NCBI GenBank assembly: GCA_035236585.1
Contig: CP141135.1
Span: forward strand, 2,452,001 to 2,516,000
Reading direction: 5' to 3'
Source: Warburgia ugandensis
Taxonomy: Eukaryota > Streptophyta > Magnoliopsida > Canellales > Canellaceae
DNA: 64,000 nt
Shown: one piece after another, positions 34,801 to 62,217 of the stretch
How positions within the stretch are numbered: position 1 is the stretch's first letter
How the letters are laid out: every line of letters begins with the position of its first letter
The notes under the pieces: generated by a model
What the model was told of the DNA's origin: nothing
Seen by the model: the letters and a program-made list of their open reading frames with translations, nothing else
Database searches by the model: none
Position numbers and translations under genes: made by a program

Positions 34801-35904
34801 CCAAGACTCCGTCATCAAATTATCCAAGCTTGTCATTTTAGTTTAGTGGCAACCTCCACCCCTTGGCATTGTCCAACTATGTTTTTATGGTTCAACAAAT
34901 TCCAAGAAAGGATTTACAGGATTTAGACTGGTGACCCAAGATAGCATGGGATTTTCCTTACTGGATGGGTAAGCTTCATTGGAAGTAAGAGAATTAACTA
35001 GGTAGGTAGAATGGAACAGCTATTGTCTGGTCTTTTGCAGGCAAATTGACTAAACTCAATAAAAGGAGGACAAATATAAATGACAAAAGTGTCATATAGT
35101 AAAAATAATAGAGAGTTAATTGTTAACTTGTATTGCTAATTATATAATAGATTTTAGTTGTTTATTTTTTAATAATTTATATTATGCATCCCAAAAAAGA
35201 AATTCTCCAACAATATCTAGCACTATCACTCATCAAGAAATAAACATAACCACCAACAAAATTATATAAATCTGGTCCTAAACCAAGGGGTTTCGCCCTT
35301 TCCACTTTGTCCTATTCACATGACTTTTGCATAACATGTTCACCTTAGCTCCTTCTCTTTTTGTGGACTACCTTATTTTCTCTTTATTTCTCCCGACTAG
35401 AAGAGGCAGTCAAGGAAGAACAAAGGTGAACATATCAATTTCCTAAATTAAATGACTAAATACCACAAAATTTAAGGACAGTAGATTGTATAACAATGGA
35501 TAGAAAGCATAAGATTTAGTTAAATAACTTGAGGACAAGCCTTGAATTCCTTAAGATGTCCTATGCCATGTTTGAATTTGGTTCAATAGCCAATCTCAAC
35601 CCCCACGAACCATCATTTGTGCATAGAATTATGCATGATCCTACTCATTTGGGATATATTGAGCCATGCACTAATTGAAAATGATTAAAAAACTAAGAAG
35701 AAAAAGCTATTAATAATCCTTGGTAATGTTAATAAGTCAATTAAACATGTATAACTAGGAAATTTTTTCTCAAGTATCTATTAATTATTATTATTCTTTT
35801 ATGGAGTTCTTTGATCTCAACTTAACCTCTCCAAAGCAACATGTATTGAAGTATGCCAGGCCCTCTTGCTTAGTCTATGATAATCAATTTTCCACTTTAA
35901 GAGA
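34801..35904 (+). pseudogene. CXE-unit flank with RNase H scrap and promoter-like block
   Basis: Resumes the CXE downstream flank at ccaagactccgtcatc, about 210 bp further on than where it broke at 28,222. The RNase H scrap is at 34,835-34,975. Then comes a stretch shared with 47.7-48.0 kb. At 35,325-35,415 a block matches the CXE promoter (cacatgacttttgc, ttagctcc, ctctttttgtgga, tttatttctc). The rest, to 35,904, is shared with 45.6-46.1 kb in reverse. No intact gene. Confidence 0.7.
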
Positions 35905-35905
35905 A

Positions 35906-36100
35906 CTAAGAGTACAATAAACTAGGCATGTTTGGTTCGGTAAGTGGCTTGGGCAAATACATAGCTTCACTTGCAACTATGACAACATCAGCTCCATGTT
36001 CCTGTGTTTCATGAAAGAACTTCCTTGCATCATCAGATGTGACTGAAGGAATTACTTGCAGAACAAATTTTGCCACTACAAATTAAGGAAATAACATTCA

Positions 36101-36152
<52 letters not shown>

Positions 36153-36860
36153 CCCAATGAACATAACCAATTTCACATGACTTTTGCTAACATTTCACTT
36201 TAGCTCCTCTTTTTGTGGAGCACTCTAATTTTCTCTTTATTTCTCTCTGCTAGAAGAGGCTGTCCAGGGAGGCAAGACAAACTTATCCATCATCGGAAGC
36301 AACCATTTCAAAAAGGGAAAGACATAGGAGATGGCAACCCCTTCGCTTACATTGGCGCGAGACGATAATTTATGGAGACAACGACGGTGGGAGTTTGCAA
36401 GGACATCCTTCGGCTGATGAGGTCGTAGCCATCGGAGTCTGTTGCGTCGTAGACAAATCCTCCTCCATGGAAGTAGATGATGAGAAGAAACCTTTCTTCG
36501 TTGGTGGTTTTTGTGGGAGTAAAGACGAGAAGCCAGAGGCTTCGAGATGGGTCAACTGTGACATCTGTAGCTTCAACTCCCTTGATTGGTGTTGTATCAG
36601 CACGGGTATGGGTTGCCAACAAGTTAAAGACAAAGCTGTAAACTAGTTCTACTATGTTTACAATAAATCAAGGGAATTGATTGAATAAACAGTAACTTAC
36701 CTCCAGCCATAGCAGCATATTTGAAGTAGTTCTCAATAGATTTGCTGATCAATAGCAGTACACAATGATGGAGAACATAGTATATCAGATCTGCTTGAAT
36801 CAAGGACCCTTGAAGATGATGGTTAATGGCAGTTATCCTTCCATCAAGCATAACTGCCAT
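35906..36860 (-). CDS. Unrecognised two-exon gene, 109 residues (exons 36,701-36,860 and 35,906-36,075)
   Basis: I do not recognise this protein. Exon 1 runs from ATG at 36,860 to a strong donor (GAG|GTAAGT) at 36,701. Exon 2 runs from an acceptor (TTTGTAG|T) at 36,075 to TAG at 35,906. Joined, they give 330 nt in one frame. Exon 1 carries SKSIENYFKYAAMAG; exon 2 carries VIPSVTSDDARKFFHE and DVVIVASEAMYLPKPL. No signal peptide or known motif is evident. Exon 2 is repeated at 45.56 (cut short), 48,554-48,726, 58.2 and 61,357-61,526 kb. The two full-length copies stay in frame to a TAG, and the 48.6-kb copy differs in length by 3 nt. The 625-nt intron here holds the CXE promoter and antisense CXE piece. 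It may be a fragment of a larger gene. Confidence 0.45.
36101..36150. repeat. (AT)n tract in CXE promoter region
   Basis: About 25 AT units, 181 bp before the retained CXE ATG. The equivalent tract lies at 45,490-45,520 for the intact gene. Confidence 0.9.
36160..36646 (+). pseudogene. CXE promoter and start joined to inverted CXE 5' half
   Basis: 36,160-36,352 is the CXE promoter, leader and first seven codons (ATG at 36,331, MATPSLT) in plus orientation. At 36,353 the sequence switches to the minus strand of CXE: to about 36,640 it is the reverse complement of codons about 123 to 30, including HGGGFVYDATDSDGYD read on the minus strand. Translation from the ATG gives only 28 residues, stopping at 36,415. 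A transcript from this promoter would be antisense to CXE mRNA over nearly 290 nt. Confidence 0.85.
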
Positions 36861-37009
36861 GGACAGTTACCACATGCATATATGTTGGATTTGAATATAA
36901 TGTTTTGGACCACTAAAATATCAACATTCTCTCACTTGGTCCAAACATTTGTAACTTTATAAGGTCATAAATCTTAATGTACTAGTAAAAAATTACTTCA
37001 TGCTCAAAC

Positions 37010-37745
37010 AAAGAAATAAATTACATGAATTATCGTGGTAATTTCTTTATAAATAATTATTACCTTCTATGTATTACAAAGTAATTATCTTCTTTGAAAA
37101 CCTTTTATGTGGTATTTTATCTTTATGAATAAGCCTCAAATGCTTATTATGGGTCCAAACATAAATATTTGTCATTCAAGAATACAGAGTTTCATTACTA
37201 ATATATGTTACAAGTATAACATCATAATTCAAATAGAAAGTGACAAAAGAGAACAAAGTTCCTTTTGCATTACATGATCCTTAAACAACTTTGGTGGCAT
37301 GCCTTTCATCAAAGGATCTACAATTATTAGCTTAGTATGAATGTGTTCAACAAGCACTTAGTTCCTTTTAACATGCTCTCTGACTGCTAAGAACTTAATG
37401 TCAATGTGCTTACTTTGACTTCCACTCTTATTATTCTTAGCAAAGAACACAGTAGTTGAATTGTCATAATAAATCTTGAGTGACCTAGAGATGGAACAAC
37501 AACTCAAAGCTAGAGATGAAACTCTTTAACCATATACCCCGTTTTGTCTCCTCAAAGTAAGAAATAAACTCAGCTTCCATAGTACAAGTAGCAATCAAAG
37601 ACTGTTTCGCACTTCTCCAAGGTATAACTCCTTTAGCAAATAAGAAGATATTGATTTATGAGAATGAACATAATAAGCGAAGTCTGAATCTGAATATCTA
37701 ACAACCTCCAAGTCATCATATGTATCTTATCATATTACCTTCCTC
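37010..37745 (-). pseudogene. Ty1/copia RNase H fragment, copy 1
   Basis: Read on the minus strand, broken frames give DSDFAYYVHSHKS, then YYDNSTTVFFAKNNKSGSQS joined to KHIDIKFLAVREHVK, and DPLMKGMPPKLFKDHV. This is the classic copia RNase H tail (DNSAAVxxxKN-KHIDIKYHxVRExV-DPLTKxMP). Other pol domains are absent. The duplicate is at 49,498-50,230. Confidence 0.85.
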
Positions 37746-38983
37746 ATCAATAATTTTTAGCTAGAGACCTCAATTTAAATTGTTTATTAACTTTATACAT
37801 TTAAACAGCAACAACATGTGCCATTGAGGTCACCCATCGTTGCATCATCACCTATTGTTGCACTAGTGGAACATGTACTTGTATATATGTTTAATTTTTT
37901 TCATCATAAATTAGGTACTCTTCATTGATTAATATTATTTAGATATATATATTTTTTACATCTTTTAGAACAGTCATAGAAGGATCGTGTGAAATTCCCT
38001 CATAACATGCCTCTATCTCTAAGGTTAATCTATAGTCTCATCGACAAAGATAGGGCAATCAACCCCATACGAATCAAGGAGGAAGTGGTTGCCAATGACG
38101 TTGTTGAAGTGCCACTTATGGAAGAGTACTTATTACAAGTTTGCCTATGGGATCAACTCGAGCACTTTGACATTATCTCCCACATTGGGTATATGCACAT
38201 ATTTGCTTATAAAACATTTGATATTATATGTTATATTTTAATAATATATGTAATAATTATTTCTTTTATGCAGCATCTTGAATGATGCAATTAGCCTTTT
38301 TGAGGTTGATGGTACACTTTACCAATTCTTTGACCCTATCATCATTTATGGAGTGGTGGATGAGATTTTACATGGCTTTTTTCTGTGCTCTAAGGGACAA
38401 GGCTTAATGTAGTGACCCAGGTTTTTATAATACATTTTTGTAATTCTTTTTGAAATGTCGAGCCCTTAGTTTGCAAAAATATTTAGAAAACAAACAGCAA
38501 AAAATATTTTTCATAAAAGACCCTTTTTGAAAACCCCGAGTGTCATTTTACTTTTCTCAAAAGGGATTATTGGTGAAATGAAAGCTACATTTCTACCTAA
38601 AATTTGGGAGAGTTTTCTCTGTTTTTCAAACATTAGACATTTAACGCATGTCATTATGAAGTACCTGATAAATACGATTTTCATACATAAAAGAAATAAG
38701 GGAGACTCCATCTCCATTCTATCATATTTACATACATGACTTCATGTGTTATAAATCAAAATTTAGCCAAATCAAAGGAAAAATCAAGATAGGATCAATC
38801 CAATCATAGCCACACCATTACCACTTTAATCCACATGTCCATAGAGTAAAGTCGTATCAATTCAAAGTATTACTTCAATAAATCATTAACCACATCGTAA
38901 ACCTGCTTGTTATACCTGATTAGTCATCTTAAGCTCTCTAGCACAATCTTTTGCTTTCTTTCCCATGTTCTAATCCTTCAAAC

Positions 38984-39016
38984 CTAAGACATTGTAAACA
39001 ATTTACAATGTCTTAG
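38984..39016 (+). other. Conserved LTR stem-loop (family A)
   Basis: A perfect 15-bp stem, CTAAGACATTGTAAA / TTTACAATGTCTTAG, closed by loop CAA. Against families B and C, two stem pairs change on both sides (G-C to A-T and C-G to T-A). Confidence 0.92.
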
Positions 39017-39270
39017 CAAGCTTACACTTGTGCAGGTAGTTTCTCATCTATTTTACCAAAATTTTCATGCAATTCTACAGTAGCATTTTAAATCATTTTT
39101 CATGCAATTTCTAAAGAATATGATTAACAAATCAAAGATAAGAAACATGATTAAAATTATGAAGGAATAACATCACTTTCATTTCTTTAAAAAACACACA
39201 ACTGCGCATGATAGAAGGAATAACAGCACTTTCATTCTTCATATAAAAATATGCATCATAGTTATGAAGA

Positions 39271-39360
39271 TACATACATACATACATACATACATACATA
39301 CATACATACATACATACATACATACATACATACATACATACATACATACATACATACATA
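39271..39360. repeat. (TACA)n microsatellite
   Basis: About 22 tetranucleotide units. The counterpart at 52,376-52,441 is shorter. Gives false MYVCMYVC reading frames. Confidence 0.96.
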
Positions 39361-42300
39361 ATCACGCATACCGCACTTGCAAGGATAGCATTCCTTTAAA
39401 GCTGAAAGCAAGGTAACATGATGTAATGTAAATCTTATGATAATCAAGTAACCTCGAATAGAAAACATGATAAGCAAAAGATTTGATTAGGTAAAATCTT
39501 AATGGCAAATAGATGTTAAAACCACCTATCTCTTGTGAAGATTTTCCTTTTCCCTAAGCTTTCACAGTCCTCAATGGCCAATTTGACTGCACCTCTCTAC
39601 TAAGTGCCTAATTTTGATGTTTTTAGGATTAGTTCTCATTTTCACACAATTGAAATATATGCATATAACCTAAGGTTTCATTCATTTCAAGGTTTAATGG
39701 TCCAGATCAACTCAAGATCATGAAACCCTTAGGTTTGAGATCCGTCGTTGATCCTAGGCTACAAGTTTGAATCATTTACGAATGACTTATCGTCATATTC
39801 AATTTCATTCTAATGATCATCATAGTTATAAGTCGTTGCCTATATAGACTACCACTTACAACATTCAACCTATGCTTTTGTTGATGTCCAAGTTTTACCA
39901 CCAAATCAATTCATCATCAACCCGATCTGGTTTGTTAAATTTTCTATTACAAACTAGATCTTCACATACTAATCTAATTTTATGTGGTTAATCATTAATC
40001 AAACATAGGGAACAGTATCAGATTATTCTCTGATCTACTGTTCACCCTCTCCACCTGAAATCTAAGGTCGAGGGTGAGTGTTTCATCAATTTAAATGGTC
40101 GGATCAGCCTTTTAGAGATGACCTGACAGCTAACATTAATTGAAAGTGGTCAGATATATCTTTTGCAGATGATCCAATAGTTTGAATGCATTAGATTTGG
40201 CTTTTCAGGGTTGTATGTGCATGATATAAGCTCTGACCAATCTTGGATCATCCGAATTTACAAATTTTGTAAGTTTATTGTTCAACATTTGAAATCTACA
40301 ATAGATTAGGGTTCAGATCTACATTATCTAGCATCATATGCACGATCTAGCTTACTGTCAACCTTTATCCAATAATCATGGACATGGTCGATGGCTAGAT
40401 CATCCATGGACAGGGGTTTAGAGGTCGGATCATTCTTGTCCAAGCTTCAATCGAATGATCGAAACCTAAGACAGGTTGAATAGCACTCCTGCAGTGCTGT
40501 TCTTCAGTCCTAGATCAAGCAATCTTGGTCCAACGAAAATTTTAGAATCTACATACAAACTATACTAAAAACCTTATATTTATGCATTTCTGTTAAATCG
40601 GTGATTGAATCAAGGTAAAACATGGATTTCGGGTAGGAATCTTACTTCTAAATCACTTGTCACTTGATGTAGATGCTAATTTATGGCCAATCAATGTGTT
40701 CTCAGAGGGGTTTTACTTATTTTCCTATGCTGGATGAAATGATCGGCTCAGATCGTCAAGCTCCAATCGAATGATCGAAACCTAAGACAAGTTGAACAGC
40801 ACTCCTACAGTGCTGTTCTTCAGTCTTAGATCAAGCAATCTTGGTCCAACGAAAATTTTAGAATCTACATACAAACTATACTAAAAACCTTATATCTGTG
40901 CATTTCTGTTAAATTGGTGATTGAATCAAGGTAAAACATGGATTTCGGGTAGGAATCTTACTTCTAAATCACTTGTCACTTGATGTAGACCGCCGAAAAA
41001 AGGTGGATGGATGCTGATCTTCTCATCGCTGGTCGGTCATAGACAAATCGCATTTGTCTTCCCTTGTCTTGAGGCCAATTTATGGCCAATCAATGTATTC
41101 TCAGAGGGGCTTTACTTGTTTTCCTATGCTGGATGAAATGATCGGCTCAGATCGTCAATCCAAGCCGTCATCTTCTCTGGCAATGGCTTGGAAGTCCGGC
41201 ACCCAAAAAACCTTTGCTTCTTCCTGCTCATTGGCATGCCAGCCCCCTCCGGCGACTTGCTTTTCTCTCTCCCCTCTTTCTTCTCTTCTTCTTTCTCTTC
41301 TTCTTCTCCTTCCTCTTCCCTTTCTCTCTTCTTCCCTGGTTTCTCCCCCTCATCAGGTTCTTTCCCCTCTTTCCCAGTTTGTCTAGTTTGGGAAGAGCAG
41401 ACTCGACATTGTGTCAGGTTCCCTTAACTGAGGGGGGTTACAGTATCAAATCTGGCCCCCTTGGTTTAAGGCATTTTGTCTTCTTCTTTTTTTAATCTTA
41501 TTTTTACCAAAATGTCCTTCATATTCAAACATCCATATCTCCTTCATTTGAACTTCGATTTCTGCAAACTTGGTATCGTTTGAATCATATTTCTGAGTAC
41601 AATCAAATATGAAGGTATTAGGGTCTAATTTGATGTCTTTCAAAAGGTAAATTTCGTGAAATCTAAATATGAAGATTCTCCCATTTATGCTTATCAAAAT
41701 CAATTTGTAATCCTTTAAAAAGGAATTTAAAAATTAGGATCATTACACTTAATGATTTCTACAATAATGGGTAATTTTTTAGTTTTTAGTTTTCTTTTCA
41801 ACTTATTCTATACCTAAGGATTGTTAATTTTAATTACAATTCATAGGAATACTATATAGGAGTCATTAGATGTTACTCGTGTTGGATATGCATAGTGGGC
41901 ATATTTTCTTTTTTTATTCTTGTGGATCACACATTCGTCCCTCCCTCACAAAAATTATAAATAAGTAAGATTTTTTTTTTTCAAGTATTATGTGTATATA
42001 AATCATTTTTTTCCCATCTATAATCCATTTGAAATTTAAATTTGTAGAGAATGGTTAGAATGAGCTGATATGATCGAGAGTAGACAACCACTAAAACACA
42101 CTTAAAACATTGTCAAGGTATAGAAAGTAGTTCATTACTCTATTTTATAACTAATTAAACTTACACTATTACAAATAATATTTATGGATTCTTTTGTTGT
42201 CCTTGTTGTACAATGCCCTAAACAATAGTCTGATTAGTAGTACAAGTACTACATGATGAGATACATGATGAACTCCCAATTAAAAAAGGTGATACACTTT

Positions 42301-43065
42301 TACTTTTCATAATCTTATATTTTTCATAGATTTTCATGTATCCATTTTAAAGAATGTGACCTAAATTATTATAAGCTATTGTGCTTCTTTTAGAGTGGGC
42401 AAACAAGAGGAGTTACTTCAAAGTAAACCTTAACAAAATACAAAGAAAATGAGCTAAGTATGTTTCAATTAAAATACTTGGTGTAGCTAAATGATTATAA
42501 AATACATAATAAAGTATTTTTTCACTCACTTGTATGTGTTCTTTTAATTATTATATATATATATATATATAAAGCTACAAATGAGTTGAAACTTAGAGTA
42601 TGGGATCGAGTTGTAGGTGAAGTGAATATGGGAGTTGGTTTTTAATATATTCATTGAATTATATAACTTTTATAGGATGATGAATGAAGATAATTTGTGT
42701 GGAGTATGGGAGTTGCAAGTAGAGTAGACTGGGGAGCTGGTTTTCAATATATTCATTGAATTATATAACTTCTATGAGATGATGAATGAGGATAACTTAT
42801 TGTGAATGTGAAAGTAAATGTGAATATGTATAGATATACAAATGAAGCGAATGTGGATATTGTATTGAATGTATGTGTTGTGGTTAATTTCCCATTTTAT
42901 GGTTTCGTAAGATAGATGTGGATGGATAATTAATGATGAATTTGTATGTTTTACACACAATGTGAAAGTGAAGGTATGCTTGTTTTTCATGTGTATAAAG
43001 GTTGTAAGATTATGAATAATATTGAATTGTATACATGTGGTAGTGATTGGAATGCACAAATGAGA

Positions 43066-43492
43066 GAGAATTTTTTTTTCTTCTTAAAGTTGTTTAACCC
43101 TAAACGACTTCAAAAGTATGGTACTTTTGAAGAAAATTTGAAGTCGTTTATAAATAAATGACTTTAAAAGTAGTCTATTTTTAAAGTCGTTTGGTCATTT
43201 AGGTCTAAACCACTTCAAAAGTTGGATACTTTTTGAAGTGGTTTCAAAGTTGTTTATGCATAAACGACTTCAAAAGTTTGATACTTTTGAAGTCATTTAG
43301 TTTTAAACAACTTCAAAAGCTCCATACTTTTAAAGTTATTTAGGTAAGCGACATCAAAAGTAATCGATTTTTAAAGTCATTTAAATGACTTTAAAAGTTA
43401 TCAACTTTTGAAGCCGGCTCAATAGAAGTCACTTTTTGGCCGACTTCTATTATCATTTTTTACTTACTTTAAAAGCATCATGTGTGGTAGTA
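43066..43492 (+). repeat. CACTA subterminal inverted-repeat array, copy 1
   Basis: Alternating ACTTTTGAAGTCGTTT and AAACGACTTCAAAAGT units with small spacers, including the palindrome GTTTATGCATAAAC near 43,252. It abuts the RNase H scrap of the CXE flank. Confidence 0.8.
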
Positions 43493-43496
43493 AATC

Positions 43497-44323
43497 TTGG
43501 GTTGGACTTTGATGCGCCATCAAAATAGAGTTGGATACTGCTTGGTGGTGGAGGCTACCACTTAACTAAAATGACAGGCTTGGATAGAAGCCTTAATTTC
43601 ATTGTTTAAGTGTACTCACATGTTCCTTGAGCACAAGATTTTTCCTACTGCAAAGATTAGCTAATTGGATATCCAAGGGTTAATCATATGTTCAATCATA
43701 ACACCTTTGCATGTATGTATGAACTCCTGCCTTGCATTCTGGTTTTCTTCTATGTGACATGCACAAGCTATTGGCCGAAAGAATGAAAGCCTAAACTGAA
43801 GGGTTGTTCCTAGGAACCACCGAGTACTTTATCAATGCTGGTTGAGAAATTTGAAACAGCAAATTATTTAATTGCAACAAGTAAAATACGCCGTCGAGAT
43901 GCAAAAGGCATTCATCTCGAAAACGTGGATGCAACAAAATTAGGCATCTAAACTAAAACATCAAGAATGATGATAGACAGCCACCCGGAGCACTATATTG
44001 AAAATAATAAGAGTTCGGCAAGAATACATGCATCCCTCTGAAGAAGTAGAATAACCCCTCGATCAATTCTTATTAAACATTGGCCGATCATCATGTTCAG
44101 CATACAAAATATTAGATAACACACCATAAATAAATTCATTCTAATGACAAATAGATATGCAAACACCATACACAACATTTCATTATAGTCACAGATAGAC
44201 TAACAAACAAGTGACAAGACAAAAATACGTAACTTAATCACTCCTGCAACGACCGGTTGGTCCAGTATTATTGGAAAAATCAACGGAAAGAGGGTGCATT
44301 ACTAATACATGGTCATAGGGATT
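43497..44323 (-). other. CXE 3' flank with RNase H scrap, unit 3
   Basis: In the direction of the CXE gene this is its downstream region. It holds the shared 3' flank, then the RNase H scrap at 43,500-43,600 (minus: PPPP, then FDGASKSNP). It is equivalent to 4790-6220, without the tandem doubling. Confidence 0.8.
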
Positions 44324-45322
44324 TCAATTCCCATACTTGAGCCTGTCTAATCGCTTGCGTATGAAATACACCATCTCGGTAAATACCTCCGAAGTTTCGG
44401 GCAAATCCGTATAACCGTAAAACCCATGAACCGCCCTCGGATACTCCACTCGGTAAGCATCTTTCCCGGATTTTATCAGCCAGGCGACGTACGTTCTCTG
44501 AAGGTCCTGAGTGGGATCGAACCCCCCAACAATCACCAACGTAGCAGGAAAGTCCAAACCCGAAATATCCACAGCATTCGGACCTGTTACATTTGCCACT
44601 TTGTTGTCCCGATTCGAACCCTCTGGCAGAAACAGGCTCCACATCTGGTCTGACTTACGTAAATTCAGTAGCGGCGCATTAATCAGCCGAAGTTGTGACG
44701 GAGTTCGTTCTTCACTGCCGTAAAATGGTTGAAGTTCCAGCAGGCCGATAACTCGTAGAGTTTGATACTCAGACTGTGTTTCGGAAATCCGTCTAGTCAC
44801 ATGGTGGGCGATATTGCCCCCGGCACTATCACCAAGAATGAAGCACCTAGACAAGTCAGCGTTTGGGGCTAACCCGTCGATGTTGGGGGAGTTATCGACA
44901 TACCTGATGGCATCCAGACCGTCTTCATATTGTGCTGGGCAGCGATACTTTGGCGCGAGACGATAATTTACGGAGACAACGACGGCGGGAGTTTGCAAGG
45001 ACATCCTTCGGCCGATGAGATCGTTGCCCCTGAAGTCTGGTGCCTCGTAGACAAATCCTCCTCCATGGAAGTAGATGATGACTGGAAGGCTTGCTTCTTT
45101 TTTGGTTTCTGTGGGAGTAAAGACGCGGAACCATAGGTTTCGAGATGGGTCAATTACGACATCCGCGGCTTCAACCCCCTCGATTGGTGTTGCATCAGGG
45201 GGTGTGTGGGTTGCCAACAAGTTATAGACGAAGCGGCTGAAGGCGTTGCTCGGGTTTGCTGTAAGAATGTCGGTAAAGAAGACGGTGATTCTGTCTCTCC
45301 ATGTAAGCGAAGGGGTTGCCAT
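44324..45322 (-). CDS. Probable carboxylesterase 18-like, intact copy 1
   Basis: Intronless 332-residue alpha/beta hydrolase of the plant CXE / hormone-sensitive-lipase group, closest in my reading to Arabidopsis CXE18 (shared LWFR-TPT, SVNYRLAP, LPEGSNRD and GPNAVDISGLDFP words). Oxyanion-hole motif HGGG at 86-89; nucleophile elbow GDSAG at 164-168 with Ser166; acid Asp269 in FDP; His299 in VHGFY. The triad is complete, so it should hydrolyse small esters in the cytosol; the substrate is unknown. Retaining His299 argues against a GID1-type gibberellin receptor. No signal peptide. Start at MATPSLTWRD, shared by all copies. An AT-rich TATA-like tract lies 168-198 bp upstream. Residues 93-100 (EAPDFRGN) differ strongly from all other copies. 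Confidence 0.95.
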   Translation of the reverse strand: MATPSLTWRDRITVFFTDILTANPSNAFSRFVYNLLATHTPPDATPIEGVEAADVVIDPSRNLWFRVFTPTETKKEASLPVIIYFHGGGFVYEAPDFRGNDLIGRRMSLQTPAVVVSVNYRLAPKYRCPAQYEDGLDAIRYVDNSPNIDGLAPNADLSRCFILGDSAGGNIAHHVTRRISETQSEYQTLRVIGLLELQPFYGSEERTPSQLRLINAPLLNLRKSDQMWSLFLPEGSNRDNKVANVTGPNAVDISGLDFPATLVIVGGFDPTQDLQRTYVAWLIKSGKDAYRVEYPRAVHGFYGYTDLPETSEVFTEMVYFIRKRLDRLKYGN

Positions 45323-45540
45323 CTCCTATGTCTTTCCCTTTTTGACGTGCCTGCTTCCTACGATGGACGAGTTTGTCTTGTCTTCCTGGACCGCCTCTTC
45401 TAGTAGAGAGAAACAAAGAGAAAACAAAAAGAGGAGCTAAAGTGAAATGTTAGGCAAAAGTCGCGTGAAATTGGTTATGTTCATTGGGTCATATATATAC
45501 ATATATATATATATATATATGCAGCTACCTCTTGCAATAA
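45323..45540 (-). promoter_or_regulatory. CXE copy 1 promoter and leader
   Basis: Upstream of the ATG there is a pyrimidine-rich block (on the minus strand tctttttgttttctctttg then tttctctctac), a ttagctcc box, aacatttcac and a TATA-like AT tract at 45,490-45,520. The same blocks precede the CXE start at 36,160-36,330. The tract is a candidate TATA region; the transcription start is not determinable. Confidence 0.5.
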
Positions 45541-45554
45541 ATTGCACTGGCAAA

Positions 45555-45606
45555 AGTGGTTCTGCAAGTAATTCCTTCAGTCACATCTGATGATGCAAGG
45601 AAGTTC
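45555..45606 (+). pseudogene. Truncated exon 2 of the unrecognised gene
   Basis: ttctgcaagtaattccttca followed by the VTSDDARKFF-coding words, then broken at 45,606. The rest of the exon was deleted relative to the copy at 58.2 kb. Confidence 0.65.
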
Positions 45607-46195
45607 TTCCAGAGGGCGTGGCGTACTTCAATACATGTTGCTTTGGAGAGGTTAATTTGAGCTCAAAGAACTCCATAAAAGAACAATAACAATTAATAGA
45701 TACTTGAGAAATTTTTTCCGAGTTATACATGTTTGATTGACTTACTAACATTACCAAGGATTATTAATAGCTTCTTCTTCTTAGTTTTTTAATCATGTTC
45801 AATTAATGCATGGCTCAATCTATCCCAAACGAGTAGGATCATGCAGAATTCTATGCACAAATGATGGTTCGTGGGGGTTGAGATTGGCGATTGAACCAGA
45901 TTCATAAATGGTACAGGACATCTTAAGCAATTCAAGGCTTGTCCTGAAGTTATTTGACTAAATCTTATGCTTTCTATCCATTTTTATACAATCCGGACTT
46001 GCTGCCCACGCTTTCCTTAAATTTTGTGGTATTTAGTTATTCAATTTAGGAAATTGATATGTTCACCTCTGTTCTTCCTTGACTGCCTCTTCTAGTAGAG
46101 AAATATAAAGAGTAAAATACGGGGGTCCACAAAAAGAGAAGGAGCTAAGGTGAACATGTTAGGCAAAAGTCATGTGGGTAAGACAAAGTGGAAAG
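45607..46195. other. Shared CXE upstream flank and second promoter-like block
   Basis: Matches 35,440-35,900 in reverse orientation and 58,400-58,998 directly. A CXE promoter-like block on the minus strand (tctagtagaga, ggagctaaggtg, catgttaggcaaaagtcatgtg) lies at 46,085-46,180, next to the fold-back CXE piece. No gene. Confidence 0.6.
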
Positions 46196-46690
46196 GGCAA
46201 TATTCCCCCTGAAACTATCACCAAGAATGAAGCACCTAGACAAGTCAGCGTTTGGGGCTAACCCGTCGATGTTGGGGGAGTTACCGACATACCTGATGGC
46301 ATCCAGACCGTCTTCATATTGTGCTGGGCAGCGATACTTTGGCGCGAGACTTCGACGGGTAAGCCCCAAACGCTGACTTGTCTAGTGATAGTGCCGGAGG
46401 GAATATCGCCCACCATGTGACTAGACGGATTTTCGAAACACAGTCCGAGTATCAGACTCTACGGGTTTGGACTTTCCCGCTACGCCGGTGGTCGTTGGGG
46501 GGTTTGATCCCATGCAGGACCAACAGACGTCGACTGGCTGATAAAATGCCGAAAAGAAGCGTACCAGGTGGAGTATCTGAGAGCGGTACATGGGTTTTAC
46601 ACTTTTATGGATTTGCCCGAGACATTGGAACTGTTTAGCGAGGTGGTGTATTTCATACGCAAGCGATTAGACAAGCTTAAGTTTAAGTAA
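46196..46690. pseudogene. Fold-back CXE pseudogene, copy 1
   Basis: 46,196-46,351 is CXE on the minus strand (about codons 170 back to 121). At 46,352 orientation flips, and 46,352-46,690 is CXE on the plus strand from about codon 149 to the stop. Codons about 192-254 are deleted and several short losses break the frame. The opposed arms share the stretch with gacaagtcagcgtttggggc, at 46,235-46,268 and 46,352-46,385, with about 83 bp between, and the pairing extends further with gaps. Duplicated at 58,999-59,493. Confidence 0.9.
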
Positions 46691-48553
46691 TGGGGATTGA
46701 AATCCGCATGCCATATATTGGTAGTGCACACTCTTTTTCGTCATTTTCTTCTATAATACTGGCCCAACTGCTAGTCGCACGTATGATCTGGTTAGTCATG
46801 TATTTTTATCTCGTCAATTGTTTGGTATTCTGTCTGTGACGATAATGAAATGTTACGTGTGGTGTTTGCATATCTATTTGTTAGTATAATATATTTATCT
46901 ATGGTGTGTTACGTAATATTCGGTATGCTGAACATAATGATCGGTCAGGTGTTAAATAAAAATTGTTGGAGGGGTTCTACTTCTTCAGAGGGACATGGTG
47001 CGTGTATTCATGCTGGGACTCCTATTATTTTCAATATATTGTTCTTGGTCACGGTCTATCATCATTCTTGATGTTTTAATTCAGATGCCTAGTTTTGTTG
47101 CATCCACTTGTTCTAGATGAATGTTTTTGCATCTCTACGGCATATTTTACTTGTTACAATAAAATAATTTGCTGGTCCAAATTTCTCAACATCCATAAAG
47201 GAAGCCTTTATTGGAGGGTTCGGAGGAGCGGCCTTTAATTTAGGCTTTCGTTTTTTCGGCCAACAGCTTGCTCATGTCACTTAGAAGAAATAGGGCATGC
47301 AAGAAATAAGTTCATACTTGCATACAAAGGTATTATGATTGAACAGATGATTAACCATTAGATATCCAAAGCCAGTTTTGTAGCTAATCTTTGTGGCACA
47401 AAAAACCTTGCACACTTAGGAAACATGTGAATACACTTGAACAGTGGACCCAAGACTTCGTCATTAGATTACCCAAGCCTCTCATTTGAGTTAAGTGGTA
47501 ACCTCTACCACCAGGTATTGTCCAACTCTGTTTCGCGCGCATCAAGGTCAAACCCAGGTTTGGCGGGGTTTAGAGTGGTGATCCAAGACAGCATGGGATT
47601 TTCCATTGCTAGAAGGGTAAGCGTCATCTTAAGTAAAACAATTAACCAGGTAGAATGGAACGGCTATTGTCTGGTCTTTTGCTGGCTAATTGACTAAACT
47701 CAATAAAAGAAGGACAAATATAAATGACAAAATTGCCATATAGCAAAATAGTAGAGAGTTAAGTGTTAACTTGTATTGCTAATATATAATAGATTTTTAA
47801 TTGTTTATTTTTTAATAATTATATTATGCATCCCAAGAAAGAAATTCTCTAATTATATCTAGCACTGTCACTCACAAAGAAAATAAAGAAATTCACCAAC
47901 AAAATTATATAAATCTAGTAGTAGACTAGGGGTATCTCCCTTTCCACTTTGTCCTACTCACATGACTTTTGCCTAACATGTTCACCTTAGCTCCTTTTCT
48001 TTTTGTGGACCACCTTATTTTTCTCTTTATTTCTCTCTACTACAAGAGGCGGTCAAGGAAGATGAAGGGTGAATATATCAATTCCCCAAATTAAATGACT
48101 AAATAAAGGAAAGATTAGGCAACAAGGGCAAATTGCATCAAAATGGATAGAAAGCATAAGCTTTAGTCCAATTACTTCAGGACCAGCCTTGAATTCCTTA
48201 AGATGTCCTATGCCATGTTTGAATTTGGTTCAATCACCAATCTCAATCCCACACGAACCATCATTTGTGCATAGAATTCCGCATGTTCTTGCTCATTTGT
48301 GATAGATTGGAATATTAATTGAACATGATTGAAAAACTGGGAAGAAAAAGCTACTAATAATCCTTGGTAATGTTAACAAGTCAATCAAACACGTATAACT
48401 AGATAGGAAAGATTATATGAAGTATCTGTTACTTGTTAGTGTTCTTTTATCAATGTCTTTGAGCTCAAATTAACTTCTCCAAAGCAACATGTATTAAAGA
48501 ATGCTAGGCTCTCTTACTTAGTCTATGATAATCAATTTTCAACTTTAAGAGAA
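46691..48553 (+). other. CXE 3' flank, RNase H scrap and promoter-like block, unit 3b
   Basis: Follows the fold-back piece with the standard flank (tgtgacgataatgaaatgtt near 46,836), the degenerate RNase H scrap at 47,480-47,630 and a promoter-like block at 47,955-48,060. Nothing intact. Relative to 43,497-45,600 it lies in inverted orientation, so the centre near 46.2 kb is an inverted duplication. Confidence 0.7.
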
Positions 48554-48726
48554 CTAAGAGCACAATAGACTAGACAACCCTAGTTTGGTAAGTGGCTTGA
48601 GCAAATACATTGCTTCACCTGCAACTATGACAACAACAACCACCCCATGTTCCCATGATTCATGAAAGAACTTCCTTGCATCATCAGATGTGACTGAAGG
48701 AATTACTTGCGGAATGATTTTTGCCA
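48554..48726 (-). pseudogene. Exon 2 of the unrecognised gene, open, copy at 48.6 kb
   Basis: Acceptor TTTGTAG|T at 48,726 and TAG at 48,554-48,556. The 173-nt exon is open and three bases longer than the 35.9-kb copy, so the frame is kept. It reads VAKIIPQVIPSVTSDDARKF, then AGEAMYLLKPL. No exon 1 is found on its 5' side, where LINE sequence begins instead. Confidence 0.55.
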
Positions 48727-49009
48727 CTACAAATTAAGGAAATAAGATTCAATATATATATATAACTCCACCAATGCGATCCCAAGCCCGGATGAAAAAG
48801 GAGGAGGGTCTTGCGTCAGGTGCTACCTAGCAAGAGAGAAGTTGAAGATAATTTTATTATTTCTTTCCTACTTGCAAATGAATATGCATTTCTATATTAG
48901 TTTGTAAGTAAGAAATGAAAATTATGTCTAGCTTCTTAAAAGTATGACAACCCTACCATTACATGAATCGAAAACTAACATTCTCTCAAGCTAGGGGTTC
49001 CTCATAAGC

Positions 49010-49475
49010 AGACTGCTGCATCAGATCTTAGGTGTAGTGAAAAATGGGCAAGTGTTGTTAGGGCATTCTCCCAGAAGCAACACTCTACATTGGATCCTAG
49101 GTGTAATGAAAAATGGGCAAGGGCTGCTAGAGCATCTCCTCGAAAGCGATGTTCTGCATTAGAACCCAGGTGCAGTGAAAAGTGGACATGGGTTGATGCC
49201 ATGAAGGTAGAGAAGTTTACAGGTAAATAGTATATCTCAAGAGCATAAGATTCACATCACCACATGCAATATAGAGACATTGACAGGTGAGAGTTTGGAG
49301 TTAGTTGACACAACGAAACATAGGAGAGTCAACATCGCTTGTATCCAAGAAACCAAATGAAAAAGAGCTAAAGCTAGAGAAATGGATGGGTAAAAACTTT
49401 GGTATATGAGAAAGGATAATAACAAAAATTACATAGGAATAATAATGGATAAATAATTAAATGATAAAGTTGTAA
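49010..49475 (+). mobile_element. LINE 5' end with 22-residue repeats, truncated at duplication junction
   Basis: 49,017-49,212 holds three 66-bp direct repeats, which in one frame encode LDPRCSEKWARAARASPRK-like units and end at TAG 49,228. From 49,260 the endonuclease start follows (ETLTGESLELVDTTKHRR, then VNIACIQETK). It is cut at 49,475, where copia-linked sequence of copy 2 begins. Confidence 0.75.
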
Positions 49476-49497
49476 AAAATTACTTCATGCTAAAACA

Positions 49498-50230
49498 AAG
49501 AAATAAATTACATGAATTATGGCAGTAATTTCTTTATAAACAAGTATTAGCTTCTATGTATTACAAAGTAATTATCTTCTTTGAAAAGCCTTTTATGTGA
49601 TATTTTATCTTTATGAATAAGCCTCAAACGCTTATTCTGGGTCCAAACATAAATATTTATCATTCAAGAATTCAGAGTTTCATTACCAATATATGCTACA
49701 AGTATAGCATCATAATTCAAACAGAAAGTGACAAATGACAACAAAGTCCCATTCGAATTACATGATCCTTAAACAACTTTGGTGGCATGCCTTTCGTCAA
49801 AGGATCTACCATCATTAGCTTAGTATGAATGTGTTCAACAAGCACTTAGTTCCTTTTAACATGCTTTCTAACTACTAAGAACTTAATGTCAATGTGCTTA
49901 CTTTGACTTTCACTCTTATTATTCTTAGCAAAGAACACAGCAGTTGAATTGTCATAATAAATCTTGAGTGACCTGGAGATGGAACAACAACTCAAAGCCT
50001 AGACATGAAACTCTTTAATAATATACCCTGTTTTGTCTCCTCAAAGTAAGAAACAAACTCAGCGTCTATAGTACAAGTAGCAATCAAAGACTGTTTTGCA
50101 CTTCTCCAAGTTATAACTCCTCTAGCAAATAAGAAGATATTGATTTACGAGAATGAACATAATTAGCGAAGTCTGAATCTGAATATCCAACAACCTCCAA
50201 GTATCATATGTATCTTATCACATTACCTTC
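49498..50230 (-). pseudogene. Ty1/copia RNase H fragment, copy 2
   Basis: Duplicate of 37,010-37,745 with the same KHIDIKFLA and DPLTKGMPPKLF-type words and a few extra substitutions. Confidence 0.85.
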
Positions 50231-50891
50231 CTCATCAATAATTTTTAGCTAGAGACCTCAATTTAAATTGTTTATTAACTTTATACATTTAATCATCAAC
50301 AACAAGTGCCACTGGGGTCACCCATCATTGCATCATCACCTATTGTTGCACTAGTGGAGTAGGTACTTGTATATATGTTTAATTTTTTTCATCATAAATT
50401 AGGTACACTTCATTGATTAATATTATTTAGATAATTTTTTTTACATATTTTACAACAGTCGTATGAGGATCATGTGAAATTCTCAGCTAACATGCCTCTG
50501 TCTCTAAGGTTAATCTATAGTCTCATCAACAAAGATAGGGCAAGCAACCCCATACGAATCAAGGAGGGAGTGGTTGCCAATGACGTTGTTGAAGTGCCAC
50601 TTCTGGCAGAAAACCTATTATAAGTTTGCCTATGGGGTCAACTTGAGCACTTTTACATTATCTCCCACATGGGGTATATGCACATATTTGCTTATAAAAT
50701 ATTTGATATTATATGTTATATTTTCATAATATATGTAATAATTATTTCTTTTATGTAGCTTCTTGAATGATGCAACTAGCTTTTTTGAGGTTGATGGTAC
50801 ACTTTACCAATTCTTTGACCCTAACATCATTTATGGAGCGGAGGATGATATTTACAAGGCTTCTTCGAGCGCTCTAAGGGATAGGGCATAA

Positions 50892-53800
50892 TGTAATAAC
50901 CTGGGTTTTTGTAATACATTTTTGTGATTCTTTTTGAAATGTCGGGCCCTTAGTTTGCAAAAATATTTGGAAAAGAAACAGCAAAAAACATTTTTCATAA
51001 AAGACCCTTTTTGAAAACTCCGAGTGTCATTTTACTTTTCTCAAAAAGGATTATCAGTGAAATGAGTGCTACATTTCTATGAAAAATTTGGCAAAGTTTT
51101 CTCTGTTTTTCGGACATTAAACATTTAACGCATGTCATTACGAACTACCTAATAAACACAATTTTCATACATAAAAGAAATAAGGGAGACTCCGTCTCCA
51201 TTATATCATATTTACATACCCGACTTCATGTGTTGTAAATCAAAATTTAACCAAATCAAAGGAAAAATTAAGACAGGATTAATCTAGTCACAGCCACATC
51301 ATTACCACTTTAATCCACATGTCCATAGAGTAAAGTCATATCATTTCAAAGTATTACTTCAATAAATCATTAACCACATCGCAAACCTGCTTGTTATACT
51401 TGGTTAGTCATCTTGAGCTCTCTAGCATAGTCTTTTACTTTCTTTCCCCTATTCTAATCCTTCAAACCTAAGACATTGTAAACAATTTACAATGTCTTAG
51501 CAAGCTTGCAGTTGTGTAGGTAGTTTCACATCTATTTTACAAATTTTCCATGCAATTCTACAATAACATCTGAAATCATTTTTCATGCAATTTCTAAAGA
51601 ATATGATAAACAAATCAAAGATAAGAAACATGATTAAAGTCATTTTTCAATCTCAATTCCATAGTTTCATGTTAAAACATTTCAAATAGTATCTATATAA
51701 AACATGTACAACTTTAAACATGCATTTTCCAAATGGTTGAATCATCATAATAATCTCAAGTAAATTGTAATATAGAACATATTCCAAAATCACATGTAAG
51801 TATAACTTGAGAACTATGTGAAAGATCTACTATCTAACTTGATAAATCAAACACCATAAGATCCTCAAAGTAGTCATCGGTTAAACTGCGAATGTCGGCA
51901 ATCCCAAACCGACAACATCACGTGCACATATGTACCCTCCCGAACACATCAGTAGGTTGCTCATGAGTACTCATCTAAAGACCATCATCAAGCCCATCTA
52001 CGTGGGGTCACAAAACAAAAATCCTATGGTACACTATGCTTACGACCAGATCACTAAATTGTGTCTCTCCGATATATGGAGAATAGCCATCGTAGCCTCT
52101 GCGGCGACAACGGATACGTATTGAAAGGGTGCTATGACCACCTCTAATGGTTGTTCCTACCACAACAATTGAGAAAATAGATTCCTCTTTAGGCATGGAT
52201 ACCTACCACCTTTGGTAGTTAGAGGCGAGGAGGCCAAACCCATAAAACCTCTCAACATAGTGACCACCAGGCTTATTAGCCTGAACAAATACACATCTCA
52301 ATCCTAAATGATCTTAAATCATATAATATATATGTCATGAAAAATCATGCATTCTTTAACTCATAGTTATGAAGATGCATACATACATACATACATACAT
52401 ACATACATACATACATACATACATACATACATACATACATACTGCATTTGTAAGTATATCATTCTTTTAAAGCTGAAACCAAGGTAACATGATGTAATGT
52501 AAATCTCATGATAATCAACTAACCTCAAATAGAAAACATGATAAGCAAACAATTTGATAAGCTAAAATCTTAATGGCAAATAGATGTTAAAAACACCTAC
52601 CTCTTGTGAAGATTCTCCTTTTCCCCAAGCTTTCACAGTCCTCAATGGCCAATTTGACTGCAGCTCTTTACTCGGTGCCTAATTTTGATGTTTTTAGGAT
52701 TAGTTCTCATTTCCATACAATTCAAATATATGCATATAACCTAATGTTTCATTTATTTCAAGGTTTAATGTCTACATCAACTTAAGATCATGAAACCCTT
52801 AGGTTTTAGATCCATCGTCGATCCTAGGCTAAAAGCTTGAATCATTTACCAATGACTTATCGTCATATTCAATTTCATTCTAATTATCATTGTAGTTATA
52901 AGTCGTTGCCTATATAGACTAGCACTTACAACATTCAACCTATGCTTTTGTTGATGTTCAAGTTTTATCACCGAATCAATTCATCATCAACTTGATCTGG
53001 TATGTTAAATTTTCTATTACAAACTAGATATAAGAATTTCTTCTATTTTCACATAATGATCTAATTTTATGTGGTTAATCATTAATCAAACATAGGGAAC
53101 AGTATTAGATCAATCTTTGATCTATTGTTCACCCTCTCCACCTAAAATCTAAGGTCTAGGGTGAGTGTTTCATTAATTTAAATGGTTAGATCAGCCTTTT
53201 GGAGATGACCCCACAACTAACATTAATTGAAAGTGGTCAGATTTGTCTTTTATAGATGATCCGATAATTTGAATGCATCAGATTTGGCTTTTCAGTGTTG
53301 TACGTGCATGATATAAGCTTTGACCAATCTTGGATCATCCAAATTTACAAATTTTATAGGTTTATGGTTCAATATTTGAAATCTGTAATAGATTAGGGTT
53401 CAGATCTATGTTGTCTAGTATCATATGGGCGGTCCAGTTTACTATCAACCTCTATCCAATAATCATGGATGCGGTCGATGGTTAGATCATCCATGGATAG
53501 GGGTTCAGAGGTTGAATCATTCTTGTCTGAGCTCCAATCGAATGATCAAAACCTCAGCTAGGTTGAACAGCACTCCTACGGTGCTGTTCTTCAATCCTAG
53601 ATCAAGCAATATCGGTCCAACGAAAATTTTAGAATCTACATACAAACTATACTAAAAACCCTAGATATATGCATTTTTGTCAAATTGGGGATTGAATCAA
53701 GGTAAAACATGGATTTCGGGTAGAAATCTTACCTCTGAATCACTTGTCACTTGACATAGACCACCGAAAAAAGGTGGATGGATGCAGATCTTCTCGTCGT

Positions 53801-54508
53801 CGGTCGGTCACAGACAAATCTCGTCTATCTTCCCTTGTCCTGATGCCAATTCTTGGCCAATCAATGTGTTCTGAAAAGGGTTTTACTTGTTTCCCTACGC
53901 TGGATGAAATGATCAGCTTAGATTGTCAATTCGAGCCGCCATCTTCTCTAATGACGGCCTGGAAGTCCAACACCCAAAAACCCTTGCTTCTTCCTCCTCA
54001 CTGGCATGCCAGCTCCCTCCGGCAACTTGCTTTTCTCTCTCCCCTCTTTCTTCTCTTCTTCTTTCTGTCCTTCTACTCCGTCCTCTTCCCTTTCTCTCTT
54101 CTTCCCCAGTTTCTCCCCCTCATCGGGTCCTTTCCCCTCTTTCCCGGTCTGTCGAGTTTGGGAAGAACAGACCTGACATTGTGTCATGTTCCCTTAAGTG
54201 AGGGGGGTTCTAGTATCAAATCTGCCCCCCTTTGTTTAAGGCATTTTGTTAGTTTTTTTTTTTTGTTAATTCTTATTTTTACCAAAATGCCCTTCATATT
54301 CAAACATCCAAACTTCGATTTCTGCAAACTTGGTGTCGTTTGAATTGTATTTCTGAGTACAATCCAAATATGAAGGTATTGGGCTCTAATTTAATGCCTT
54401 TCAAAAGGTAAATTCAGTGAAACCTAAATATGAAGAATCTCCCATTTATGCTTATCAAAATCAATTTATAATCCTTTAAAACAGAATTTAAAAATTAGGA
54501 TCGTTACA
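50892..54508 (+). mobile_element. Solo LTR, family A, copy 2 (3.6 kb)
   Basis: Begins TGTAATAACCTGGG and ends GGATCGTTACA. It is flanked by CATAA (50,887-50,891) and CTTAA (54,509-54,513), the copy 1 target duplication with one change. It contains the stem-loop at 51,468, the empty site for family B insertion at 51,757, a (TACA)n tract at 52,376-52,441 and the 3' GC-rich box at 54,200. ORFs at 53,744-54,343 are pyrimidine-tract artefacts. Confidence 0.9.
51468..51500 (+). other. Conserved LTR stem-loop (family A, copy 2)
   Basis: Identical to 38,984-39,016: a 15-bp perfect stem with loop CAA. Confidence 0.92.
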
Positions 54509-56221
54509 CTTAATGATTTTCTACAATAGAGGGTAAGTTTTCATTTTCTTGTTTTCTTTTCAACTTATTCTATACTTAAGGATTGACAATTTTAATTACA
54601 AATCATAGGACTTACTATATAGGACTCATTAGATGCTACTTGTGTTGGATATGCACAGTGGGCATATTTTCTTTTTTTTATTCTTGTGGATCACACATTC
54701 GTCTCTCCCTCGCAGAAATTATAAATAAGTAAGCTTTTTTTTTTCATGTATTACGTGTAGATAAATAATTTTTTATTCATCTATAATGTATTTGAAATTT
54801 AAGTTGTAGAGCATGGTTAGAATGGGCTGATATGATCGAGAGTGTACAACCACTAAAACACACTTGAAAGATTATCAAGGTCTAGAAAGTAGTTAATTAC
54901 TCTATTTTATAACTAATTAAACTTACAATATTACAAATAATATTTATGGATTCTTTTGTTGTCCTTGTTGTACAATGCCCTAGACAACAAACTGATTAGT
55001 AGTACGAGTACTATGTGATGAGATACATGAGGACATTAATATTTGATGGTATTGGTGTCTCCCAATTAAGAAAGGCGATACACTTTTACTTTTCATAATC
55101 TTATATTTTTCACAGATTTTCTTGCATCCATTTTGAAGAATGTGACCTGAATTATTATAGGCTGCTGTGCTTCTTTCAAAGTGGGCAAACAAGAAGAGTT
55201 ACGCCAAAGTAAACCTCAACGAAATACAAAGGAAATGAGCTGAGTATGTTTCAAGTAGAACACTTGGAGTAGCTAAATGATTATAAAATACATAATAAAG
55301 TATTTTTTCATTCACTTGTATGTGTTCTTTTAATTTTTATTATTTTTTAAATATATATATTAAGTGATAAATGAGTGGAAACTTGGAGTATGGGATCGAG
55401 TTATAAGTAAAGTGAATATGGGAGTTGTCTTTCAATATATTCATTAAACTACATAACTTTTGTGGGATGATGAATGAAGAAAATTTGTGTGGAGTATGGG
55501 AGTTGCAAGTGAAGTAGACATGGGAGTTGGTTTTCAATATATTCATCGAATTATATAACCTCTATGGGATGATGAATGAGGATAACTTATTGTGAATGTG
55601 AAAGTATATAGATATACAAATGAAGCGAATGTGGATATTGTATTGAATGCATGTGTTGTGGTTAATTTCCCATTTTATGGTTTCGTAAGATAGATGTGGA
55701 TGGATAATTAATGATGAATTTGTATGTTTTACACACAATGTGAAAGTGAAGGTATGTTTGTTCTTCATGTGTATAAAGGTTGTAAGATTATGAACAATAT
55801 TGAATTGTTTACAAGTGGTAGTAATTGGAATGCACAAATGAGAAAAAAAAAAAGACTTTTAAAGTCGTTTAACCATAAATGACTTCAAAAGTATGGTACT
55901 TTTGAAGAAAATTTGAAGTCGTTTATAAATAAATGATTTTAAAAGTAGTCTATTTTTAAAGTCGTTTGGTCATTTAGGTCTAAACCACTTTGAAAGTTGG
56001 ATACTTTTCGAAGACTTTCAAAGTTGTTTATGCATAAACGACTTCAAAAGCACAATACTTTTAAAGTTGTTTAGGTAAGCAACATCAAAAGTAATTGATT
56101 TTTAAAGTTGTTTAAATGACTTTAAAAGTTATCAACTTTTGAAGCCGGCTCAATAGAAGTCGGCGAAGCTGACTTCTATTATCATTTTTTACTAACTTTA
56201 AAAGCATCCTGTGTAGTAGTA

Positions 56222-57051
56222 AATCTTGGGTTGGACTTTGATGCACCATCAAAATAGAGTTGGATAATGCTTGGTGGTGGAGGCAGCCGCTTAACTAAAA
56301 TGACAGGCTTGGATAGAAGCCTTAATTTCATTGTTTAAGTGTATTCACATGTTCCTTGCGCACAAGATTTTTTCTACTACAAAGATTAGCTATTTGGATA
56401 TCCAATGGTTAATCATATGTTCAATCATGATACCTTTGCATGCATGCATGAACTCCTGTCTTGCATTTCGGTTTTCTTCCAAGTGACATGCACAAGCTAT
56501 TGGCCGAAAGAATGAAAGCCTCAGCTGAGGGTTGTTCCCAGGAACCCCCGAGTACTTTATCAATGTTGGTTGAGAAATTTGGACCAGCAAATTATTTAAT
56601 TGTAACAAGTAAAATACGCCGTAGAAATGCAAAAGGCATTCATCTCGAACACGTGGATGCAACAAAACTAGGCATCTAAATTAAAACATCAAGAATGATG
56701 ATCGACAGCCACCAAGAGCACTATATTGAAAACAATAAGAGTCCAGCAAGAATACATGCATCCCTCTGAAGAAGTAGAATAACCCCTCCATCAATTCTTA
56801 TTCAACATTGGCTGATCATCATTTTCAACATACAAAATATTAGGTAACACACCATAAATAAATACATTATAATAACAAATAGATATGCAAACACCATACC
56901 CAACATTTTATTATCGTCACAGATAGACTAACAAACAAGTGACAAAACAAAATTACGCAACCGAATCACACCTGCAACTACCGGTTGGTCCAGTATTATT
57001 GGAAAAATCAACTAAAAGAGCGTGCATTACTAATACATGGTCAGAGGGATT
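56222..57051 (-). other. CXE 3' flank with RNase H scrap, unit 4
   Basis: Duplicate of 43,497-44,323. RNase H scrap at 56,225-56,330 (minus). Confidence 0.8.
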
Positions 57052-58050: not shown

Positions 58051-58104
58051 CTCCTATGTGTTTCCCTTTTTGACCTGTTGCTTCCTACGATGGTTATGTT
58101 TATT

Positions 58105-58171
<67 letters not shown>

Positions 58172-58172
58172 C
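58051..58172 (-). promoter_or_regulatory. Shortened CXE copy 2 promoter with (TA)n(CA)n tract
   Basis: The copy 1 counterpart of the missing part is 45,367-45,474. The deletion joins two tgg words (cgatgg and aaattgg). The dinucleotide tract runs 58,108-58,170, with TA then CA units. Confidence 0.65.
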
Positions 58173-58214
58173 AAATTATTATTATTGTAGGTGTAAGATA
58201 CAGCTATCACTTGT

Positions 58215-58382
58215 CATTCTGCAAGTAATTCCTTCAGTCACATTTGATGATGCAAGGAAGTTCCTTCATGAAATATGGGAACATGGGGCTGCTGTTGTCA
58301 TAGTTGCAGGTGAAGCTATGTATTTGCTCAAGCCATTTACCGAACCAGGCATGCCTAGTTTATTGTGCTCTTGTTTCTCTTA
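58215..58382 (+). pseudogene. Exon 2 of the unrecognised gene, copy at 58.2 kb
   Basis: Open stretch reading VIPSVTFDDARKFLHE, then AAVVIVAGEAMYLLKPF and MPSLLCSCFS before TAA. The usual TAG after LLCS is changed, adding three residues. It lies upstream of CXE copy 2 in divergent orientation. No exon 1 nearby. Confidence 0.5.
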
Positions 58383-62212: not shown

Positions 62213-62217
62213 TAAGC

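Follow-up and report, generated by a model that had tools for sequence, protein, structure and literature searches.

A chimeric CXE pseudogene with an inverted CXE fragment: anatomy, probable origin and antisense potential

Here we have analysed a rearranged locus lying at about 36 kb in a window of 64,000 nucleotides (C10:2452001-2516000, from a genome of 1.12 Gb in 14 contigs, presumably that of a plant judging by the genes present) that contains a cluster of carboxylesterase (CXE) genes. Our results point with good confidence to a chimeric, decayed CXE pseudogene, which would have arisen by one deletion between tail-to-tail copies and whose product is most likely functionless. The original prediction had taken the same locus for a candidate source of an antisense RNA directed against the intact genes of the cluster. 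We describe the pieces of the locus, weigh the ways in which they could have come together, and compare the locus with a nearby fold-back that seems a better candidate source of small RNAs.

Anatomy of the chimeric locus

The features of the locus, and the CXE genes with which they were compared, are the following.

36012-36330, plus strand: CXE-type upstream sequence and leader; a (TA)n tract spans about 36102-36150 (alignment to CXE44)
36331-36352, plus strand: first 22 coding nucleotides of a CXE gene, with the ATG at 36331, start of the chimeric 28-codon ORF (alignment to CXE44)
36348-36352: junction overlap of 5 bp with one mismatch, TACAT in the 5' partner and TACTT in the inverted partner (comparison with today's genes)
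36348-36639, minus strand: inverted CXE fragment, nt 377 down to nt 86, 86% identical to CXE57, with an open minus frame and no indel (self-comparison)
36637-36926, minus strand: putative LTR-like sequence with TG...CA ends; the polypurine-tract-like GGACCAAGTGAGAGAA comes before it on that strand
37229-37726, minus strand: broken pieces, presumably copia RNase H-like, farther upstream on that strand
34801-36123, plus strand: upstream module, about 85% identical to 47450-48764 and 60252-61574, of which it is an older copy (self-comparison)
44324-45322, minus strand: intact gene CXE44, 332 aa, an uninterrupted ORF of 332 codons (Pfam Abhydrolase_3, E 4.9e-48)
57052-58050, minus strand: intact gene CXE57, 332 aa, an uninterrupted ORF of 332 codons (Pfam Abhydrolase_3, E 7.7e-49)
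3808-4794, plus strand: CXE pseudogene with an in-frame stop and two indels (1 nt inserted, 13 nt deleted)

In the window self-comparison, 36012-36352 (+) aligned with CXE44 at 45611-45301 (81.6% over 342 columns), matching its upstream region, its leader and the first 22 coding nucleotides, and these 22 nucleotides are the only sense CXE coding sequence at the locus. The alignment upholds the leader and first seven codons that had been proposed in plus orientation, while the proposed promoter is one by homology only. The leader and the ATG context are well preserved relative to CXE44, and from about 36151 onward the leader is common to the relic and CXE44, most of it being missing from CXE57. 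The ORF that opens at 36331 reads MATPSLT, continues with 21 unrelated codons and stops after 28 codons, as had been stated.

The inverted fragment corresponds to codons about 126 to 29, somewhat more than the codons 123 to 30 first assigned to it, and its length of 292 nt and opposite orientation agree with the earlier description. It aligns without gaps to CXE57 (251/292 identical, 41 differences) and CXE44 (247/292, 45 differences), a match far above chance (E 4e-94). The join had been placed at 36,353, and the two parts indeed meet and overlap at 36348-36352. Among 20,000 random joins, an exact overlap of at least 5 bp was found in about 0.4% and of at least 3 bp in about 5%; the overlap seen here, with its one mismatch, is compatible with microhomology-mediated joining, and we claim no more for it. 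By its pieces and their orientations, the geometry is that of a CXE-type 5' end facing antisense CXE, as originally predicted.

On the right side, CXE homology stops at about 36637-36639, where the LTR-like sequence begins, so that the region proposed for expression checks, extending to 36860, covers the locus but enters a probable retroelement remnant in its last part. Read on the minus strand from 36926 down to 36637, this sequence runs TGTTGATAT...TTTACA, with GGACCAAGTGAGAGAA preceding it. No second copy of 36637-36926 was found in the window or in 16 fetched loci, where the window's own stretch was the only one matched at length, and the copia remnant as a whole (36637-37726) presents one LTR-like end. 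Pfam returned no family at E<=10 for the four copia-like pieces, and PDB no match for the one piece compared. We read 36637-36926 as the putative LTR of a probable retroelement remnant.

The upstream module to the left of the join deserves some comments of its own. It contains a segment of the leader twice, at 35315-35439 and 36172-36290 (80% identical), and an open piece of 58 codons at 35906-36082 (-), for which there was no Pfam family and only two unconvincing PDB matches (E 0.26 and 0.67). In the plus-strand copies of the module (ending at 36113, 48764 and 61574, and at C10:2448084), homology breaks off at the (TA)n tract or close to it, which looks as if it were a recurrent break site.

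Further to the right, the self-comparison revealed a unit of about 12.8 kb, 36985-49474, repeated as 49472-62682 with 89-97% identity by block. This unit, the product of a later duplication, starts some 345 bp beyond the right end of the inverted piece; the junction is thus outside it, and neither repeat carries the chimeric structure. We also considered that the junction had been lost from the neighbouring units through a LINE-linked deletion; this idea was rejected, since the unit starts at about 36985 and never contained the junction. The homology between 49003-49474 and 62211-62682 ends at the unit join. Next to this join lie stretches with internal repeats, 48765-49471 and 61575-62682, which we take to be LINE-like and which have an 80% relative in another fetched locus (L015); of two such pieces submitted to Pfam, one had no family and the other gave three weak matches below the cut-off.

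Age, coding constraint and origin of the chimera

Is the inverted fragment still under selection as coding sequence? It diverges from the intact genes by about 14-15%, and its NG86 dN/dS is 1.08 against CXE57 and 0.88 against CXE44 (96 codons each), and 1.32 against the 3.8-kb pseudogene (95 codons), versus 0.36 for CXE57 against CXE44 over these codons; with fewer than 100 codons, these estimates are rough. The changes private to the fragment fall 15/9/9 at codon positions 1/2/3. A seven-sequence tree, rooted on a C4 relative, groups the five other C10 copies in one clade (support 85) that excludes the fragment, and the fragment bears the longest terminal branch (0.113) of the six C10 sequences; it differs from the C4 outgroup at 76/288 sites, the other C10 copies at 62-69 of 287-288. 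The fragment is an old lineage with no visible coding constraint. Its 292 nt contain no stop and no indel, but when 41 substitutions were placed at random the frame stayed open in 7,249 of 20,000 sets; the open frame is thus not rare by chance, and what is mildly surprising, in a neutral piece of this divergence, is that it shows no indel. The locus combines clear homology to a functional parent (86% to CXE57) with a disabled coding sequence, the 28-codon chimeric ORF, and with relaxed constraint, as is characteristic of a duplicated (non-processed), rearranged pseudogene.

We propose that two old CXE copies lay tail to tail in an unstable cluster, an arrangement that we infer for these two. 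A single deletion, with an imperfect microhomology of 5 bp at most, would have taken out all the DNA from codon 7 of the plus-strand copy as far as codon 126 or so of its minus-strand partner, leaving a CXE 5' end that faces the antisense of another copy's 5' half. The probable LTR retroelement would have interrupted the minus-strand copy around nt 86-90, either before or after the deletion. Such a locus would make no protein of note. Transcription from its relic promoter, if it occurs, would give a non-coding RNA with a short ORF and antisense CXE sequence, most likely functionless or under ordinary silencing. Both elements of this scheme occur elsewhere in the window: the pseudogene 3808-4794 (+) faces the minus-strand genes (e.g. 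CXE44, 44324-45322) tail to tail, and fold-back junctions are found at about 46350 and 59153.

An intragenic inversion followed by loss of the 3' part would give an identical junction, and our data do not separate it from a deletion, although a deletion between two tail-to-tail copies appears the simplest origin. An assembly or library chimera at 36348-36353 must also be weighed: fold-back joins with short microhomology also occur as artefacts, the locus is known from a single assembly, and there is no second copy of the junction among the 27 matches listed in the genome search (whose counts are lower bounds), where query 1-487 was spanned whole by the window's own locus only. The order of the 12.8-kb units, which never held the junction, is no evidence against such an artefact. 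Against it stands the inverted piece itself, which is a diverged lineage of its own with no closer donor among the same 27 matches; this, together with its end at the LTR-like boundary, makes the right side at least look like settled genome sequence. We therefore regard an artefact as highly improbable, and retain the deletion between tail-to-tail copies.

Antisense complementarity and candidate small-RNA sources

The presumed targets were the intact genes. The window holds three near-full-length CXE copies, of which CXE44 and CXE57 are indeed intact and the third (3808-4794) is disabled; two further near-full-length copies lie outside it, one with an open ORF of about 330 aa (C10:2027757) and one with a frameshift (C10:2543246). 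The solved structures nearest to CXE57 by sequence are the gibberellin receptors GID1 and plant CXEs. CXE57 lacks, at 58050-58170, about 110 bp of the leader common to CXE44 and the 36-kb relic, hence transcription may start differently in the two intact genes, or their expression may not be the same. No Rfam family was hit in the window, and the available part of the literature on CXE18 tandem clusters, or on CXE genes with natural antisense transcripts, yielded nothing about this locus.

In the regulatory reading, the relic CXE promoter would drive a leader plus antisense RNA in those cells that express the intact genes, and pairing with their mRNAs would generate siRNAs acting in trans. The geometry is right for this, with a CXE44-like leader, and antisense pairing is possible: the fragment, 7.7 kb from CXE44, shares 24/272 exact 21-mers with it and 22/272 with CXE57, with longest exact runs of 37 and 41 nt, respectively. 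The preserved leader and ATG context, and mildly the lack of indels, count against a decayed pseudogene. Nevertheless, the divergence of the fragment from the intact genes is neutral-like; the four near-full-length C10 copies (CXE44, CXE57 and the two outside the window, one of them frameshifted) together contain exact matches to only 28 of its 272 21-mers; the shared leader would be sense and add no antisense; and a single such locus was found among the 27 matches listed. There is no hairpin either, since 36200-36640 folds with z +0.6 (71/100 shuffles as good) and contains no internal sense/antisense CXE pair. This indirect evidence leans against a maintained regulator.

Rice offers a useful frame for these observations. 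According to the part of PMC2708354 available to us, 145/11,956 rice pseudogenes were potential sources of antisense small RNAs, and 21/38 candidate trans-nat gene-pseudogene pairs lay within 10 kb of each other, as against 437/11,956 pseudogenes overall. On that account, pseudogene antisense siRNAs are real but concern a minority of pseudogenes, and the 7.7 kb that separate the fragment from CXE44 fall in the enriched distance class. The ratio 21/437 (about 5%), computed here from these rice figures, is the rough base rate from which we judge a trans-acting regulator at 36 kb to be very unlikely, and on the sequence evidence a regulatory reading of the locus as a whole is unlikely.

A variant of the idea is that transcription from the LTR-like sequence, leftward and in the CXE sense, converges with rightward transcription from the relic promoter, so that the resulting dsRNA would yield local, mostly 24-nt siRNAs silencing the locus and perhaps its paralogues. 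The LTR-like end, on the minus strand, points straight at the fragment, and the rice pseudogene antisense small RNAs are described in the same source (PMC2708354, in the part available) as mostly 24 nt long, some being linked to cis-acting repression. The LTR identity is itself only probable, a single copy was seen and the element is a remnant, for which reasons we find convergent transcription quite unlikely as well. A functionless pseudogene thus remains our preferred reading of the 36-kb locus.

A different structure, 10 kb away, has the fold that the chimera lacks.

46195-46411: CXE fold-back, nt 517 down to 362 (-) joined at about 46350 to nt 440 onward (+) (self-comparison; folding)
58998-59209: second fold-back copy, longest helix 36 bp with one mismatch (folding; helices)

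In the first copy, 46195-46350 (-) represents CXE nt 517->362 and 46349-46467 (+) nt 440-573, and the longest helix, of 31 bp with one mismatch, pairs 46237-46268 with 46353-46384; in the second, the longest helix pairs 59040-59076 with 59151-59187. The segment 46180-46480 folds at -133 kcal/mol, with z -9.3 on the plus strand and z -7.9 on the minus strand, and the segment 58983-59283 gives z -7.7; in each of these three tests, 0/100 shuffles folded as well. The two copies are 297/301 identical over the 301-nt stretches. In both, the minus piece shares 96/136 exact 21-mers with CXE44 and with CXE57, and the plus piece 15/99 (copy 1) and 7/99 (copy 2). The region 46195-46411 thus forms a stable fold-back whose arms resemble a family of protein-coding genes.

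Could this be the real silencing source of the cluster, if there is one? The fold-back at 46195-46411 and its copy at 58998-59209 represent a young inverted duplication of CXE coding sequence and have folding energies and minus-piece 21-mers in their favour, and this makes them better small-RNA candidates than the 36-kb locus. The plus piece, however, shares few exact 21-mers with the genes; no promoter reading in was recognised (no dedicated plant-promoter search being involved); and the first copy is flanked by the upstream region of CXE44, on the minus strand, and by a 3' remnant on the plus strand. Moreover, both copies derive from one recent duplication and are not a case of independent conservation, so that, with no promoter recognised, their persistence does not imply function. 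We consider such a role unlikely, and the duplicated fold-back is all the same a more useful lead than the chimera. One could go further and imagine a cluster regulated by its own wreckage, in which codons about 147-173 would be targeted by primary small RNAs from the hairpins at 46195 and 58998, and codons 29-126 by additional antisense RNA from the 36-kb relic promoter, working alongside the intact genes, and in which paralogue dosage would set the level of silencing; we hold this combined scheme to be extremely improbable.

Two further points concern the relation between the fold-back and the chimera. We rejected the possibility that an insertion had split a single gene into the inverted piece at 36348 and the minus piece at 46195-46350, as the two are respectively 86% and 96% identical to the intact genes. 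The breaks at 36348 and 46350, which belong to two different fold-back junctions, fall in the same 16 nt of CXE (nt 362-377).

Comparison with known systems

In the rice Lgc1 glutelin locus, a deletion occurred between two tail-to-tail paralogues, which is the event we propose for the 36-kb locus, and enough of the sense copy was retained for a hairpin to form. In contrast, the 36-kb locus has lost nearly all of its sense copy.

The fold-back at 46195-46411 has the anatomy of a young inverted duplication, the kind of structure from which MIRNA and hairpin-siRNA genes may originate. Young inverted duplications gave 16 Arabidopsis MIRNA loci (in the available text of PMC1790633), and as in the young plant MIRNA loci of that type (PMC1790633 and PMC3237417, both in part), the arms of the fold-back come from the family that it could target. 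This likeness, one of DNA anatomy, concerns the neighbour and not the 36-kb locus.

The chimera itself recalls the rice candidate trans-nat-siRNA loci, which, as far as the available part of PMC2708354 goes, are also duplicated pseudogenes near their parent with potential antisense complementarity; those loci were called from small-RNA reads, unlike the 36-kb locus, whose description here comes from sequence. Similarly, the soybean GmIRCHS (I locus, chalcone synthase silencing) is a rearranged family pseudogene that lies next to an intact relative and whose 5' end and promoter have been recruited; the available part of PMC13051633 describes an inverted repeat of 1,087 bp, with a spacer of 78 bp, placed under the 5' portion of a DnaJ gene, and detected dsRNA. 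GmIRCHS thus has both arms, sense and antisense, in one transcript, whereas the 36-kb locus has the antisense half only and no hairpin; and its promoter belongs to another gene, whereas the 36-kb locus stands under a CXE-type 5' end. If transcribed, the chimera would represent an antisense by-product of an unstable cluster, with a matching promoter, and possibly an early step toward loci of the GmIRCHS kind; for now, it simply adds to the rearranged pseudogenes of a familiar kind.
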